Below are positions 2,858-13,117 of a stretch of DNA of 21,257 nt, piece by piece. The translations under genes and the position numbers were made by a program. The stretch lies in the IMG/VR virus record IMGVR_UViG_3300013094_000332, positions 1-21,257 of that record; one strand, 5' to 3'. The notes under the pieces are model-generated. The model did no database searches and was not told the DNA's origin. It saw only the letters and a program-made list of their open reading frames with translations. Positions within the stretch are counted from its first letter, which is position 1. Every line of letters begins with the position of its first letter. This DNA comes from a virus.

Positions 2858-2996
2858 TCTCAACTGGCTTTCCGGCCAAGGCGAACTGTGCATACTGCCA
2901 CGCTGTATCGCGGACCTCAGCGGGGCTTGCGCCCCTTGCTACTAGGCCCATGACGGCCGCCGCGGCCATTGTGAATAGTTGCTCTTCGTGCGTCAT
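2844..2996 (-). CDS. Small hypothetical protein (50 aa)
   Basis: The ATG shares its A with the stop of the primase-helicase gene (TAATG), so translation is probably coupled. The product starts MTHEEQLFTMAAAAVMGLVA and then reads RGASPAEVRDTAWQYAQFAL, ending in a polar tail. It looks like a compact two-helix protein. The pattern with EEQLFTMAAAAVMGLVARG resembles small phage proteins encoded near replication genes, by recall. Function unknown. Confidence 0.65.
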   Translation of the reverse strand: MTHEEQLFTMAAAAVMGLVARGASPAEVRDTAWQYAQFALAGKPVENENQ

Positions 2997-5305
2997 TAAA
3001 ATATCTCTCCGTTGTCTAATTTCTCAATGCTGTCAATATACCTCTGAGCCTTCTCATTCAGACGTATGCCCTTATAAATGTGCTGCCTCTGCCCACCGAT
3101 GCGAGTCGAGTCCGATTCAACGTGGTGCTCTTGAATCGCGGCCAAGAATCTGCGCTTGAATGACAGCTCCGAGCCGGGTGTGATGCTCTTGTGCAGTGCC
3201 CAGCGCTTGTAGCATGCAAAGATGTCATCCTTGTTGACCGTGTAGGCTGGGTCAATCTCAAGCACGTCATCAATGAACGAGCCGATTGGGTTGCCCAACT
3301 CGCTCATCAAGTCTAAGTACTCTTTGCCCGACTTAGGCTGCACAAAGTTACCACCTCGCGCCAGACGTCTGCGCTGACCTTCGATCACCCAGTTAAAGAT
3401 GCCTGACAATTCTTTTCTCAAGCGTGATGACAGTGTGGTGTCTTCCTTGTTGTAAAAAGATTTTGACATCTTAAGCACTAACATGCGGCCGGTGAGCGCG
3501 TTACTGTTCTCGGTTAACTGGAGTACTTCGTTAGAATAAATAACAATCCTAGTAGGTAGGTAACCATTCCAAGACTCTTTGTTCTTACGGTTGACTGTGA
3601 CAGTATCTCCACCCACAATGCGCAGTAACTGGCTGACCACAGCAGAACGATTACGCTCAGGAGCACGGGCGTCGGTAAAGGAGGCAAGGAGCTTGCCAAG
3701 CCAAGGTTGTAGTCCAAAAGTATCACAGAGTTCCTCCAGTTGTGGTGCGACTGTATTGTGTTGGCCTAGTAGGTCAACGAGCACCTTGTTAATAGTTCCC
3801 TTACCGCTACGTCGCGGACCAATGATGTTTAAAAACTTCTGCTCTGAGGTGTCCCCTGAGAGAATATACCCAAAGTATTCCTGCAGCAGCTCCTTAGACT
3901 CATTGTCCTCGCCCCACACGTCATCTAAAAACTTCATCCACTCGGGGCAGTCTTTAGATGGGTCGTACTCGAACGGCAGCGAGTTGTACGTAAAGAATCC
4001 CAGCGAGTGCGGAAACAATACGAGCTGATCCATCTGAAACAGTCCGTTGACCATGCTGATTAACTTCTCAGCCGGCGGGTTGTTGGCCGAGTAACCGTCT
4101 AACCAAACTGGTGGCTTGGTGTTCGGGTCGTTGGCCAAGTGCACGATGGACTTAATCGCATCAATCGCGGCGTTCACTACCGATGGGTTGGCGTTGAACG
4201 GCACCAAGTTGCCCTTCTTGTCCTGCTTCTGACACTTGTCTAAAAACTTGTATAGCTGGGAGCGCACCGTGGCCTCTTCGATGTAGGTGTAGTGCGTGCC
4301 AGTGTACACAAAGAAGTCCTCCGCATAGTGCACCAGCTTATAGCCATTTTCCACCGTGTACATCGATGACAAAAACTTCCTTGCGTGGTCTAGCGGGTTG
4401 GATATGTCCAGCACTATCTCTCCAGCGGCCAAGGCCGCTTGCAGCTTTTTTTGGTTCACCTTAAATATCAGGGAGCGCAACGTGATGCCCTGACCCTTAA
4501 AGCTATTCCACTTCGTCGTGCAGGAGTTGATGCCGGTCACGGTGTACTTGTTGGACTGCGAGCTCCAACGCTCCCACGCCTCTAAGGCCTCGACGTCGCC
4601 ACTGAACTGGTGGTGCAGCGCCATGCCAATATTCTTCCAGTCATCATACCCACAGTTTGGGTCAAGCTCAGGCAAGAGCTCGGTCTCTACGCGCAGGATG
4701 TCCCAGCCCTCGACTGGTGGCGTGTAGTTTGCAAAGTCGTCGTCTGACTGGCGCATTGCGCGCGGTGGTACGTGCGCGGTGAGGTCCTGCGGGTCGCTAG
4801 GTACGTCGCCTGCAATCTTGTGGCCCGTCATCGTGAAGTACCGGCTCTTTGGGTACACCTCCAGCCCGATGGCGTGGTCAACGTGCGCAGAGTGTAATTC
4901 AGCGCGGGTGAATATCTTAATGCCCGTACCCGATGGGCTGACTTCCACGTAACCCTTCACGTTGTCCATGATGGACTGGGCCAGCTCGTTTAACTCACCA
5001 GTCTGAGTATCTCTACAGTCGTCAATATCAATACCAATGAGGTTATCATCCCCAGTAAAAACGAAGCCAATGCCGTCAAAATTACCATTCTCGTATGCCT
5101 TTTGTGCCGTAAAGAAGTCTGTCCAAGTTGCTGGGTTAGTAGAGGATGCAGACTTTCCAGTGTGCTGCACTGGGAGCTTGCTCCACTTTTGCGACTCACC
5201 ATCTCCGACCAAGGTGTACTTCCACAGGCAAAACCGTGGGATTCTCTTGAGGTCGTTGGGTATCGCATTAAAATCCACCTCTAATGCGTCTGGTTTTTGT
5301 AACAT
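2996..5305 (-). CDS. Primase-helicase (prim-pol domain plus superfamily 3 helicase)
   Basis: Replication protein of 769 aa. The N-terminal primase-polymerase-like domain shows GIDIDD at 91-96, SPSGTG at 123-128 and FTMTGH at 157-162, fitting the metal-binding acids and strand motifs of archaeo-eukaryotic primases. Residues 205-275 resemble a PriCT-2 linker domain (CGYDDWKNIGMALHHQ). A D5-like helicase N-domain follows at 310-400. The SF3 helicase has Walker A GPRRSGKGT (496-504), a Walker B-like segment near 538-546 and RIVIYSNE (586-593). It should prime and unwind phage DNA in the cytoplasm. An AAGGAG-type site lies 6-12 nt before ATG, and a CGTATTAGT box lies 23 nt upstream. It sits next to the putative origin. 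Confidence 0.93.
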   Translation of the reverse strand: MLQKPDALEVDFNAIPNDLKRIPRFCLWKYTLVGDGESQKWSKLPVQHTGKSASSTNPATWTDFFTAQKAYENGNFDGIGFVFTGDDNLIGIDIDDCRDTQTGELNELAQSIMDNVKGYVEVSPSGTGIKIFTRAELHSAHVDHAIGLEVYPKSRYFTMTGHKIAGDVPSDPQDLTAHVPPRAMRQSDDDFANYTPPVEGWDILRVETELLPELDPNCGYDDWKNIGMALHHQFSGDVEALEAWERWSSQSNKYTVTGINSCTTKWNSFKGQGITLRSLIFKVNQKKLQAALAAGEIVLDISNPLDHARKFLSSMYTVENGYKLVHYAEDFFVYTGTHYTYIEEATVRSQLYKFLDKCQKQDKKGNLVPFNANPSVVNAAIDAIKSIVHLANDPNTKPPVWLDGYSANNPPAEKLISMVNGLFQMDQLVLFPHSLGFFTYNSLPFEYDPSKDCPEWMKFLDDVWGEDNESKELLQEYFGYILSGDTSEQKFLNIIGPRRSGKGTINKVLVDLLGQHNTVAPQLEELCDTFGLQPWLGKLLASFTDARAPERNRSAVVSQLLRIVGGDTVTVNRKNKESWNGYLPTRIVIYSNEVLQLTENSNALTGRMLVLKMSKSFYNKEDTTLSSRLRKELSGIFNWVIEGQRRRLARGGNFVQPKSGKEYLDLMSELGNPIGSFIDDVLEIDPAYTVNKDDIFACYKRWALHKSITPGSELSFKRRFLAAIQEHHVESDSTRIGGQRQHIYKGIRLNEKAQRYIDSIEKLDNGEIF

Positions 5306-5380: not shown

Positions 5381-5495
5381 TGCTGCACTGCATCCTGGAT
5401 ATTTGCCACCCTTTGAAATGAAAGGGTGGCACGATAACTCTTTGATTTATAAGACTATTTGTATGCCGATCCACAGTATCCACCCTTCTTTTGAC
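5381..5495 (+). repeat. Direct repeat copy A (about 115 bp)
   Basis: The first 53 bases are identical to 11047-11099, and the rest is closely similar, ending in an identical GATCCACAGTATCCACCC stretch. Both copies lie in intergenic regions, in the same orientation. Confidence 0.9.
5405..5430. other. Perfect hairpin, conserved in both origin-like repeats
   Basis: GCCACCCTTT, loop GAAATG, AAAGGGTGGC: a 10-bp stem with a 6-nt loop. The same 26 bases occur at 11071-11096. No T-run follows on either strand, so it is not a typical intrinsic terminator. Confidence 0.7.
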
Positions 5496-5618
5496 TTTTC
5501 TTTAAATTTTTAAAAAATAAAAAATAAAATATTTGGGATAAAAGTGAAAACTTCTGTGGATACTGTGGATCGTACCCAAAATACCTTTAAGAATCAACAG
5601 GTTACCGTGCCACCCTTT
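5421..5618. repeat. Nested inverted repeat with one common centre
   Basis: Outer arms AAAGGGTGGCACGATAAC and GTTACCGTGCCACCCTTT pair with a single mismatch. Inner arms GATCCACAGTATCCAC and GTGGATACTGTGGATC pair perfectly. Both pairs are centred at about 5519.5, and the intervals between them also show partial complementarity, so the whole 198 bp looks like a diverged palindrome around an AT-rich core. Confidence 0.85.
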
Positions 5619-5664
5619 GGAATTGCAATCCTGTCAAATCCTGCCACTTTTTAAAATAGGGCCG

Positions 5665-5726
5665 TAGAGGCGTTTAAAATGAATGGGTAAGGGGGTAGCC
5701 TCACCTAGTCTTAAAAAACGCCTCTA
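5665..5726. terminator. Long-loop stem at the end of the sigma-factor operon
   Basis: Arms TAGAGGCGTTT and AAACGCCTCTA form an 11-bp stem around a loop of about 40 nt, just after the last gene of the leftward operon (stop at 5732). On the - strand the first arm runs into a short T-tract. Position suits a terminator or processing site, but the long loop is atypical. Confidence 0.4.
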
Positions 5727-5731
5727 TGGGG

Positions 5732-6004
5732 CTATAAACAGACCACTGTACCAATCGTCGTTGGAGTACACCTGACAATCTTGCCGTCTGGCATCGTGAC
5801 CACTTGGGCCAGTGCGCTGACGATGTGAAAGCCAAAGTACAGGATAAATAGGGCAATGGCAATCCAGCCGTACTTGTTCCATTTATGGTGCTGGCGCTCT
5901 TGCTCTAAAAATAAAAAGCGCTCAGGCTTGCCGTAGTCCATCTCAATTCCCTTACAGTTGCAAACACTGCGCCCTTGGTTACAATTTCCTGTGCATCCTC
6001 TCAT
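5732..6004 (-). CDS. Cys-rich single-span membrane protein (90 aa)
   Basis: The N-terminus carries Cys4, Cys8, Cys15 and Cys17 (MRGCTGNCNQGRSVCNCKG), which could bind a metal. One transmembrane segment lies at about residues 45-66. A short tail, VVTMPDGKIVRCTPTTIGT, has two more cysteines (79, 89). The MPDGKxVxC ending is seen in small phage membrane proteins, by recall. Start overlaps the upstream stop as ATGA. It is the last gene of its operon. Function unknown. Confidence 0.75.
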   Translation of the reverse strand: MRGCTGNCNQGRSVCNCKGIEMDYGKPERFLFLEQERQHHKWNKYGWIAIALFILYFGFHIVSALAQVVTMPDGKIVRCTPTTIGTVVCL

Positions 6005-6198: not shown

Positions 6199-6521
6199 AC
6201 TATCTCCTTTACGTTGTGTGCCTTGTCTTTCCATGAGTCTGCGTCGCCGTAGTCACCGCGGATCATGCTCATGCGCTCCTCTTTCCTATATGCAGGCTCG
6301 ATGGCCCACCATGCTAGGCTTGCCTCCTTGTACTCTGCCCACGCCTCATTTTCTAAAAACATGGGGTGGTTCATTCCAGCCACGTCCACAGTGCAGAGCA
6401 CGTCACTGGTCGGTTGCCACGGCCCCTTGTTTAGCCTGCGATACTGCCCCAGCGATACGTTATTGCGCGCCTTAATAAAGCGCTTGTAAGCAATCTCTTG
6501 CTCTTTGGTTAAGTTAATCAT
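6195..6521 (-). CDS. Hypothetical protein (108 aa)
   Basis: Begins MINLTKEQEIAYKRFIKARN and is rich in aromatic residues (AWAEYKEASLAWWAIEPAYR at about 60-79). The first 8 bp overlap the end of the sigma factor gene, so the two are probably translated together. It could be a partner of the sigma factor, but only adjacency supports this. No family recognised. Confidence 0.7.
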   Translation of the reverse strand: MINLTKEQEIAYKRFIKARNNVSLGQYRRLNKGPWQPTSDVLCTVDVAGMNHPMFLENEAWAEYKEASLAWWAIEPAYRKEERMSMIRGDYGDADSWKDKAHNVKEIV

Positions 6522-7077
6522 CGTGCTCGTCCTCCATCTTATCTAATTGCAGTGCGTCTAATGACGTGGGTTCTTGTAACATGTAAAACTTTAGCTGGTT
6601 CACGCGCTTGGCCGTCTTGCCCAGCACCTTAGCGAGCTCTTGAACTGTTGGCGTTCGCCCAAGCGTTTGAGTGAGTGCACGCTCAGTGTACGTCATCTTG
6701 CGGATCTCTTCGCGCACCTTAATCGGTATGCGCACCAAGTTCTCCTCGTCGTCCTGCCCACGCTCCACGCCACGCAGAATAAACCGCTTGGCGTACGTTG
6801 CAAACTTGGCGCCGTTCTTTGGCACCCACTGGCGTGCAGCCTTGTAGAGCGCCTCGTTGCCCATGCCAATTAAGTCCTCCTGAGGCGTGCGTGAGTGGTT
6901 CCACGCGGTCAGCTTGCGCACCGTGTACACCACAAAGCGCAGGTTGTGCGTGACTAGCTTGTCCAGCGCAAGCTCATCGCCTTGCTGAATGCGACGGGCC
7001 AGCTCGTACTCTTGCTCGCTGTCTAGCACTGGTATGCCGTACAGGGACTGCAGGTAGTCAGTTAAAAAGTCATTCAT
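6514..7077 (-). CDS. Phage sigma-70-family factor without region 4
   Basis: A 187-aa RNA polymerase sigma factor. Region 1.2/2.1 starts near residue 11 (SLYGIPVLDSEQEYELARRI). Region 2 includes NLRFVVYTVRKL (45-56), EDLIGMGNEALYKAARQ (67-83) and FATYAKRFILRGVER (92-106). Region 3 covers VRIPIKVREEIRKM and GRTPTVQELAKVLGKT (115-155). The protein stops at EPTSLDAL plus an acidic tail, so region 4 (-35 reading) is absent, as in T4 gp55. Relative to E. coli sigma70 the -10 contacts W433, W434, Q437 and T440 appear as R98, F99, R102 and E105. The start at 7077 overlaps the upstream TGA as ATGA. It probably directs host RNA polymerase to CGTATTAGT promoters. Confidence 0.88.
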   Translation of the reverse strand: MNDFLTDYLQSLYGIPVLDSEQEYELARRIQQGDELALDKLVTHNLRFVVYTVRKLTAWNHSRTPQEDLIGMGNEALYKAARQWVPKNGAKFATYAKRFILRGVERGQDDEENLVRIPIKVREEIRKMTYTERALTQTLGRTPTVQELAKVLGKTAKRVNQLKFYMLQEPTSLDALQLDKMEDEHDD

Positions 7078-7295
7078 TGTTGCTCCATAAAAATAAGTGG
7101 GAAGACGATCAACGCCACGACTATGACTGCAATTAGTCTTGGGAAGATGCAGCACAACAATACCAAAAGCAAAAAGAAACCGATCGTGGCACCAGTGCCC
7201 ACTCTTCTCTGTAGCTTACCGGTGAATAAGTAACCCATCGATAGCAAAAATAATATTGTTGGGATGACCACAATCGGTACGAGGAAGTATCTCAA
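7074..7295 (-). CDS. Two-span membrane protein with TTG start (73 aa)
   Basis: Highly hydrophobic, with spans at about residues 3-24 and 38-68 around a basic loop (GKLQRRVGTG). The TTG start is supported by a strong AGGAGG 7 nt upstream and by overlap with the previous stop (TTGA). Its stop overlaps the sigma factor start. It could be a holin-like or other membrane effector, but position among early genes gives no clear role. Confidence 0.75.
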   Translation of the reverse strand: MRYFLVPIVVIPTILFLLSMGYLFTGKLQRRVGTGATIGFFLLLVLLCCIFPRLIAVIVVALIVFPLIFMEQQ

Positions 7296-10421: not shown

Positions 10422-10430
10422 ACTAATACG
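10422..10430 (-). promoter_or_regulatory. CGTATTAGT promoter box (P2) for the sigma-factor operon
   Basis: ATGCGTATTAGTGG on the - strand, 30 nt before the first start codon. It drives the operon that includes the sigma factor gene, so positive autoregulation is possible. Function inferred. Confidence 0.65.
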
Positions 10431-11046: not shown

Positions 11047-11161
11047 TGCTGCACTGCATCCTGGATATTTGCCACCCTTTGAAATGAAAGGGTGGCACGG
11101 TAACTCGTTGATTTAAAAGACTATTTACCCTACGATCCACAGTATCCACCCTTCTTTTTAC
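11047..11161 (+). repeat. Direct repeat copy B (about 115 bp)
   Basis: Matches 5381-5495; identical over 11047-11099, with scattered differences after that. It includes the same hairpin (11071-11096) and GATCCACAGTATCCAC (11134-11149). Confidence 0.9.
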
Positions 11162-11190
11162 TTTTTTTATTTTTTTTAAAAAAGTAAAAA
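11155..11190. other. AT-rich hairpin
   Basis: TTTTTACTTTTTT and AAAAAAGTAAAAA form a 13-bp stem around a 10-nt AT loop. It lies inside the interval bounded by the inverted ATCCACAGTATCCA sites of copy B and may be an unwinding element or a bidirectional terminator. Confidence 0.45.
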
Positions 11191-11229
11191 AGATATAGAG
11201 GGTAATAGTCATTTAGACCCTGGATACTA

Positions 11230-11245
11230 TGGATACTGTGGATAA
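11230..11245. promoter_or_regulatory. DnaA-box cluster with one perfect site
   Basis: TGTGGATAA (11237-11245) is the exact complement of the DnaA box TTATCCACA. It is part of TGGATACTGTGGAT, the inverted partner of ATCCACAGTATCCA at 11135-11148. A similar unit, TGGATACTATGGATAC, precedes it. Confidence 0.5.
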
Positions 11246-11316
11246 TGATTACTTTTAGTTATATAAGAATCCTTTAATATAACTTTTTGTAATAAAGGCT
11301 GCTTTAATACAATTTG

Positions 11317-11652: not shown

Positions 11653-12162
11653 ATGAAAAGACTAAACGCAACTACAGGAAAACCATTTAATCGCGGAGAC
11701 AATCGCGAAGATGGTTTTTTCTTTTTGGGTTACCAAACCCGAAAAAATAAACAAGGGTTTTTTTATGAATCTTGGGCAAGTCCCCAGCTTTGGAAAAATC
11801 AAACAGTTGGTGAAAGAAACACGTTTGAGAAACACATAAGCAGGTCTTATGCGCATATTAAATCCAGATCAAAAAAAGAAAATATCCCGTTTACCGTTTC
11901 TTTAGATTATCTGAAATCAATTGCCACTGATACATGTCCAGCTTTAAAAATAAAACTGTCTTGGTCTCAACCAGGTAAAACAGATAATAGCCCATCATTA
12001 GATAAAATTATTCCTGAATTGGGGTATGTTGAGGGTAATGTTATGTGGCTTTCAAATAAAGCCAATAGAATGAAAAATAACGCCACAAAAGGTGAATTGA
12101 AAAAATTTGCAGAATGGATACTGAATGGCCATATTGGCAACACAAAAGGTGTTAACCCTTGA
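11653..12162 (+). CDS. HNH-like (homing-type) endonuclease (169 aa)
   Basis: A probable free-standing phage endonuclease. The N-terminus is basic (MKRLNATTGKPFNRGDNRED). The C-terminal half shows the conserved order CPALKIKL (a CPxLxxxL start), SLDKIIPELGYVEGNVMWLS (about 120-139) and NRMKNNATKGELKKFAEWI, close to the pattern SxDRIxPxxGYxxGNVxxxSxxANxxKxxAT of phage HNH-like nucleases. It would nick or cut DNA to spread itself. The ATG 11653 follows the P4 box; an upstream TTG is rejected. AT-rich relative to neighbours, which fits mobility. It overlaps the next frame by 38 bp. Confidence 0.8.
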   Translation: MKRLNATTGKPFNRGDNREDGFFFLGYQTRKNKQGFFYESWASPQLWKNQTVGERNTFEKHISRSYAHIKSRSKKENIPFTVSLDYLKSIATDTCPALKIKLSWSQPGKTDNSPSLDKIIPELGYVEGNVMWLSNKANRMKNNATKGELKKFAEWILNGHIGNTKGVNP

Positions 12163-13117
12163 CTATTGGAAAATAGCGCAGGATATCAGACCGGGTGACA
12201 TTGTATTTGACAGACTGGGCCGCAAGGTCCGGGTAAAGCTCGCCCAGCCCCTAGACAAACGCCCATGTTACCGGGTCACGTTCCTAGATGGAACCTCGGT
12301 CGCTGGAGATAAAGACCTCAAACTCCCTATTGAAACGCCAAAGTACCGCAAAAGAGTTTGGGAATACAAGGGCAAATTCCAATTTCGCAGGCCGCTATCC
12401 AACTATTCCCTTGGAACGCTATCTGAAATCGAACTGACCAACAAGCACGGCAGGCTTATGTACAGCGTGCCAACCGCCGGACCGTTAGAATTACCACATA
12501 GAGACCTGCCAGTACCGCCGTTTGTGTTTGGATTGTGGTTTTTCTCTAAAAGAAAAGACGGAACTTTAAAAATTCCGGCGCAACACTTTGATTTTATTGT
12601 AGAAAAATTAAAAGACTACGGCTATTTACCAACATCTTGGCGTGATCCCATCAAAAAACGTCAAGTGTACAGCACAAAGCCAACGGTTCTGTCCCATCTG
12701 GCACCCAATGTGCCGTATAAAATACCGAACAATTATCTTTTAGCTAGCCCAGAGCAACGTCTGGAGCTTCTTAGTGGTATTATGTATGCAAAACCAAATC
12801 AATATAACCAAAAGTTAGATAGGTTTCGATTTAGTTCCAAACATTTACCAACAGTCAAGCAAATTCAATACCTTGCCGAGACGCTAGGTTGCAAAACCGT
12901 ACTGGAAGGACGCAATCCATTATCAGGATATACGGTCTACATTAAAACAAAACTCAAATTGATGGAACATCAAACTTCTAAGCCGATCAAAGTGCGGCAA
13001 AATTGGAGAATGATTACTAAAATTGAAAAAATCATACCACAAGCGTGCGTTCACATCGAATTAGATGGCGACGATAGCACCATGTTGGTAGAAGAAGGAT
13101 TTATTGCATGCCTTTAA
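12125..13117 (+). CDS. Degenerate free-standing intein (Hint plus LAGLIDADG remnant), 330 aa
   Basis: Block order matches an intein with a homing endonuclease domain. The N-terminal Hint part is VLTLDYWKIAQDIRPGDIVF (9-28) and YRVTFLDGTSVAGDKDL (49-65). The endonuclease parts are PPFVFGLWFFSKRKDG (131-146) and RLELLSGIMYAKPN (212-225). The C-terminal Hint part is VHIELDGDDSTMLVEEGFIA (309-328). Key residues are missing: no Cys1 and no N-extein (a stop precedes the ATG), no TxxH in block B, no acidic residues at either LAGLIDADG site, and ACL-stop instead of His-Asn at the end. The last 10 bp overlap the terminase start. Splicing and cutting are probably lost. The start codon is uncertain (ATG 12125 or GTG 12149). 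Confidence 0.75.
   Translation: MAILATQKVLTLDYWKIAQDIRPGDIVFDRLGRKVRVKLAQPLDKRPCYRVTFLDGTSVAGDKDLKLPIETPKYRKRVWEYKGKFQFRRPLSNYSLGTLSEIELTNKHGRLMYSVPTAGPLELPHRDLPVPPFVFGLWFFSKRKDGTLKIPAQHFDFIVEKLKDYGYLPTSWRDPIKKRQVYSTKPTVLSHLAPNVPYKIPNNYLLASPEQRLELLSGIMYAKPNQYNQKLDRFRFSSKHLPTVKQIQYLAETLGCKTVLEGRNPLSGYTVYIKTKLKLMEHQTSKPIKVRQNWRMITKIEKIIPQACVHIELDGDDSTMLVEEGFIACL

Follow-up and report, generated by a model that had tools for sequence, protein, structure and literature searches.

The described systems closest to the element considered here are the replication origins of the satellite P4, of the Staphylococcus aureus pathogenicity islands (SaPIs) and of the phage-inducible chromosomal islands (PICIs). 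This element, hereafter element 1, lies upstream of a primase-helicase gene in a stretch of 21,257 nt from a freshwater phage (IMG/VR record IMGVR_UViG_3300013094_000332, positions 1 to 21,257; hereafter the window, to which all element coordinates refer). PICI and SaPI origins that have the same layout, i.e. opposed sets of short repeats (iterons) on both sides of an AT-rich region, have been published (PMC6092414, PMC7581432). The iterons are recognised by the C-terminal domain of the SaPI Rep protein (PMC7581432), and this part of Rep also reads them in Gram-negative PICIs (PMC6092414, PMC7581432). SaPI origins are located downstream of rep, and PICIs are satellites that carry an integrase and regulatory modules. 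P4 encodes a D5-type primase-helicase, alpha, which has a zinc-ribbon/Toprim primase domain and ends in a Pox_D5 domain. Two P4 sites located several kb apart, ori and crr, both carry type-1 repeats in opposed sets; crr adjoins the end of the alpha gene and includes two repeats 9 bp apart (CTGTTCACA CTGTTCACC). Finally, phage NrS-1 encodes a primase-polymerase that joins an archaeo-eukaryotic primase (AEP)/PrimPol domain to a hexameric helicase; the possible origins reported in its genome are not iteron arrays but an 8-nt recognition sequence present in two copies (PMC7102993).

The window shares with P4 a D5-type primase-helicase of its own and opposed repeats at two sites, with SaPIs and Gram-negative PICIs a proposed C-terminal reader of the iterons, and with NrS-1 a primase domain that is matched at the sequence level. 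However, this domain is AEP/PrimPol-like and associated with PriCT_2, unlike that of P4 alpha, and the first copy of the element is upstream of the primase gene, whereas crr adjoins the end of alpha and SaPI origins lie downstream of rep. Furthermore, unlike P4, the phage encodes packaging and portal proteins of its own, and its relatives have their own polymerase. Three traits relate the locus to origins of the P4/SaPI/PICI type and, for the last one, to origins assisted by the integration host factor (IHF): a candidate initiator, encoded by the phage itself, with primase and D5/SF3-type helicase domains; two opposed sets of short iterons that flank an AT-rich region beside (upstream, not downstream of) the initiator gene; and IHF-consensus sites close to the iterons, at which IHF would bind. 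The primase-helicase of this phage very probably reads the mirrored repeats as a replication start site, of which there would be two. What is new is the variant, which combines two copies, a frame of IHF-consensus sites and an iteron word that changes within a family constant in other respects.

Architecture of the two elements

The initial annotation had described two concentric inverted repeats at this place. The outer pair (5421-5438 and 5601-5618) matches at 17 of 18 bases, as had been claimed; the inner pair (5467-5483 and 5556-5572) is indeed perfect but is 17 bp long instead of 16. Their common centre is at 5519.5, where it had been placed. Both pairs sit within a single imperfect inverted repeat, whose 79-nt arms (5421-5499 and 5540-5618) are separated by a 40-nt gap and are 73% complementary (58 of 79 positions pair; when the surrounding 1.2 kb was dinucleotide-shuffled 60 times, the best result was 41). 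The AT-rich core was confirmed as well, positions 5501-5534 being A/T only and part of the 40-bp stretch with the lowest stability in the window. Two traits had been missed: the inner arms are tandem 9-bp repeats, the iteron word of the window being GTATCCACA, and each outer arm continues into an IHF-consensus site (5435-5447 and 5592-5604). Element 1 comprises the following parts:

5404-5623: element 1 overall
5404-5431, no strand: outer short hairpin TGCCACCCTTT-gaaatg-AAAGGGTGGCA, left end
5435-5447, minus strand: IHF-consensus site AATCAAAGAGTTA, binding presumed from the consensus
5467-5484, plus strand: left iteron array (CGATCCACA GTATCCACC)
5501-5534, no strand: AT-only core, proposed unwinding site
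5555-5572, minus strand: right iteron array (CGATCCACA GTATCCACA, minus-strand reading)
5592-5604, plus strand: IHF-consensus site AATCAACAGGTTA, binding presumed from the consensus
5608-5623, plus strand: outer repeat TGCCACCCTTTGGAAT, right end

A second copy, element 2, had also been overlooked. It occupies approximately positions 11070-11262, where the leftward gene block gives way to the rightward one; positions 5400-5525 and 11066-11191 match at 87%, and the two least stable 40-bp stretches of the window are the cores of element 1 and, in second place, of element 2. Its parts are:

11070-11097, no strand: outer hairpin
11101-11113, minus strand: IHF-consensus site AATCAACGAGTTA, binding presumed from the consensus
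11133-11150, plus strand: left iteron array (CGATCCACA GTATCCACC)
11162-11183, no strand: AT-only core
11219-11245, minus strand: right iteron array of three units (TTATCCACA GTATCCATA GTATCCAGG, minus-strand reading)

Another inverted repeat, GCGTTT...AAACGCC, is located just upstream of element 1 (5656-5735), with similar sequence in the loci L001-L004 and L007; it could be a terminator or an RNA hairpin. Searches for known RNA families and tRNAs found none.

Conservation of the layout and turnover of the iteron word

Eighty loci, with 61-100% identity, were obtained when viral contigs were scanned with the primase. Most of these relatives have an AT core between opposed repeats upstream of the primase gene, and the letters of the repeats vary from phage to phage. 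The initial annotation had expected the arms to be conserved in related phages: their arrangement is, but their letters are not. Tandem repeats with a period of 9 form 40 arrays in 29 loci, and no other period between 5 and 25 was seen in more than 5 loci. A detector was built on three traits: opposed arms at fixed spacing, an AT-rich core and a periodicity of 9 bp. It returned 75 elements from 1.44 Mb, in which near-duplicate contigs were kept. Sixty-one of them are located at most 450 bp upstream of the primase gene, 3 within 3 kb and 11 at 5.4-11.8 kb upstream; none is downstream of it. Where enough upstream DNA is available, 64 of 72 loci carry an element. The same detector found nothing in 40 shuffled windows, nor in two phages with related terminases (50 kb each). 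It is tuned to the family: the sites of P4 itself are not recovered, and it missed L013, L044, L045 and L065, which by eye seem to carry the element.

With one word retained per locus, 27 distinct iteron words were counted in 56 loci. In phase, they follow a loose common form that is approximately S-T-W-G-Y-N-N-N-R (from position counts); those of other relatives include GTTGCTAGG and CTTGTCACA, the latter being close to the P4 crr repeats. When a long relative has two elements, these carry the same or closely related words. No relatives were found in bacterial and archaeal genomes with the patterns used. Several contigs carry arrays without a primase in the stretch examined, in some cases because this stretch is short. 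A separate group of viral contigs (L154, L155, L160, L166, L168, L169, L171, L172 and L174) harbours GTCACACTT arrays with a poly-T core, without a primase of the window type; the D5_N domain was not found in the five records of this group that were searched.

The flanks of the arrays are also distinctive. The motif WATCAANNNNTTR, which we take to be the IHF consensus and on which the presumed binding of IHF rests, occurs 48 times in the 6.8 kb beside arrays versus 120 times in 973 kb elsewhere (57-fold enrichment), and flanks shuffled with their base composition kept contain a mean of 0.6 sites; it was recognised as such only after it had been seen recurring. It is present on 47 of 106 element sides, AACTAAAAGT being found instead on 16, and neither on 43. 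In the window, it lies on both sides of element 1 and on one side of element 2.

Other motifs were observed around the elements. ATAACTAAAAGT lies beside arrays, often where the IHF consensus is missing (positions 11249-11262 of the window are an example), and 15 of its 18 occurrences in the loci used fall in element flanks. In related loci, the Fur-box-like AATCATTMTCAT stands 29-37 bp beyond the arrays of six elements, and 7 of its 10 occurrences in the loci used adjoin elements. A TTGCGTATTAGT box recurs upstream of the start codons at 5305, 11314, 11635 and near 10425, with TTTCACAATGTGAAA-like palindromes nearby; these are probably phage promoter elements.

As for the gene content, the window encodes terminase and portal genes (Pfam, PHROG) and a sigma-70-like factor (6514-7155), and all seven long relatives have a family-A polymerase. 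Since no integrase was found in these seven genomes, the phages are suggested to be lytic; together with the terminase and portal genes, this led to the rejection of a PICI or P4-like satellite identity. A 330-aa open reading frame (12125-13117, plus strand) with terminase PHROG matches runs into the start of the terminase large subunit and looks intein- or Hint-like by eye.

The primase-helicase and its C-terminal domain

Two features of the window concern the proposed initiator:

2996-5305, minus strand: primase-helicase gene (769 aa), proposed initiator, from Pfam, PDB sequence matches and PHROG
2999-3325, minus strand: predicted winged-helix domain at the C-terminus (codons of residues 661-769) and candidate iteron reader, from AlphaFold, RFX-type hits and iteron association

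According to Pfam, the protein carries an AEP/PrimPol-like primase domain, PriCT_2, D5_N and a DUF5906 helicase region. The N-terminal domain has sequence matches in the PDB (7ola, 6k9a and others), AEP-type primases among them, and the PHROG match is to DNA primases. AlphaFold predicts a winged-helix fold for residues 620-769 (mean pLDDT, the per-residue confidence, 77; pTM, the predicted template modelling score, 0.56). The best PDB matches of this model are RFX DNA-binding domains; a search of the PDB with the sequence of the C-terminal domain found nothing.

The pairwise divergence of iteron words was compared with that of each region of the primase, the rest of the protein being held constant (partial Mantel test), with words and phase assigned by hand for the main test. 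Residues 661-769 gave a partial r of 0.30 (p=0.001), against 0.14 (p=0.026) for residues 481-600, 0.09 for residues 601-660 and -0.14 to 0.01 for the regions before residue 480, with permutations that remove relatedness only in part. With 23 disjoint nearest pairs, the C-terminal region gave r=0.46 (p=0.027) and all other regions |r| of at most 0.11. The strongest subwindows (731-740, 711-720 and 741-750) fall on the recognition helix and wing of the predicted fold. For five neighbouring proteins that had enough orthologues (p2844, p6001, p6195, the sigma factor and p7665), no association with the iteron word was observed, and they were ruled out as readers on that ground. These comparisons favour, without proving it, the C-terminal domain as the reader of the iterons.

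Model, alternatives and meaning for the family

By analogy with the work on P4, SaPIs and PICIs, from which the binding and all later steps are borrowed, initiation can be pictured as follows. With the winged helix at its C-terminus, the primase-helicase would bind the opposed arrays of 9-bp iterons, while host IHF, at the consensus sites just outside the arrays, would bend the DNA. Two helicase rings would then be assembled face to face over the AT core, which would melt, and the AEP/PrimPol domain of the same protein would prime both strands for the family-A DNA polymerase. We give a probability of about 0.8 to the reading of the feature as an iteron-type replication origin of the P4/SaPI type, present in two copies and melted by the PrimPol-helicase of the phage with bending by host IHF; it rests on sequence comparison and on analogy. 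Comparative evidence and the published PICI/SaPI origins support the first proposal of an origin or initiator-binding palindrome beside the primase-helicase gene, apart from its DnaA component.

Several observations weigh against this reading. The counterpart of the Pox_D5 domain that ends P4 alpha was matched only weakly here (32 of 47 members in Pfam, the window protein not being among them), and an hhalign comparison of the C-terminal alignment with P4 alpha gave no link. With two automated iteron distances, the C-terminal r drops to 0.19 and 0.12, and a signal also comes from residues 1-110 (0.11 and 0.15). The primases of L040 and L041 are 99.7% identical, with residues 661-769 unchanged, and their commonest iterons differ at two positions; mixed words within the arrays of this clade suggest some tolerance. 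The GC-skew profile, which had been put forward as a check, has its extremes away from the elements in the long relatives and was dropped as origin evidence. TA skew reaches its maximum within the second copy in four genomes and, in a fifth, about 55 bp beyond it, a peak that is confounded by the switch of gene direction at the same point. Lastly, the same sites may act as operators, a role that can coexist with that of an origin.

That operator role is the alternative that survives best, although we hold it to be rather improbable. The arrays would be bound by a repressor or activator, possibly the primase itself, controlling the primase operon and the two gene blocks that diverge at the second copy, and the AT core would be a promoter region shaped by IHF. 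The location of element 1 in the leader of the primase gene and of element 2 between diverging gene blocks agrees with this, as do the promoter-like boxes that recur near start codons. However, the elements are strictly paired with the primase-helicase gene, their words associate with the C-terminal domain of the primase and not with the five neighbouring proteins compared, the window reaches its lowest stability at the AT core, and the opposed arrays resemble the P4 and PICI origins (PMC6092414).

A packaging, partition or recombination site, palindromic by chance, is very improbable: two copies per genome would suit such a site, and palindromic cis-sites occur in other phages, but the position follows the primase gene instead of the terminase genes, the seven long relatives yielded no integrase, and the data show no sign of cutting or pairing at the site. 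Least plausible of all is a host origin at which DnaA would act on box-like sites of the arms, as first proposed: the 8/9 match does exist (GTATCCACA, 5555-5563) and element 2 even has a perfect box (TTATCCACA), but the former has no weight because boxes with no more than one mismatch are about as frequent in the window as chance predicts (6 versus 5.3 expected), without a conserved cluster above that level, and most relatives keep the layout with words unlike DnaA boxes, such as GTTGCTAGG or CTTGTCACA, the resemblance being a property of the iteron word of the window's clade.

If the arrays are replication origins, the metagenomic phages of this family gain a predicted origin that can be found by sequence alone, and the family forms a natural collection of initiators, each paired with its own origin. 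What is known of the specificity of P4/SaPI-type origins comes from relatively few cultured elements; with 56 loci, 27 words, one protein family and one layout, it becomes possible to ask which winged-helix residues read which bases and whether a change of word isolates a phage from competitors or satellites. It is conceivable, if somewhat doubtful, that in this probably lytic freshwater family the 9-bp word changes repeatedly together with the winged-helix surface that reads the DNA, against a constant layout and initiator, so that coinfecting relatives or origin-copying satellites cannot use each other's replication machinery. If this were true, the family would spell out, as a code that can be read, an initiator-origin specificity under selection.
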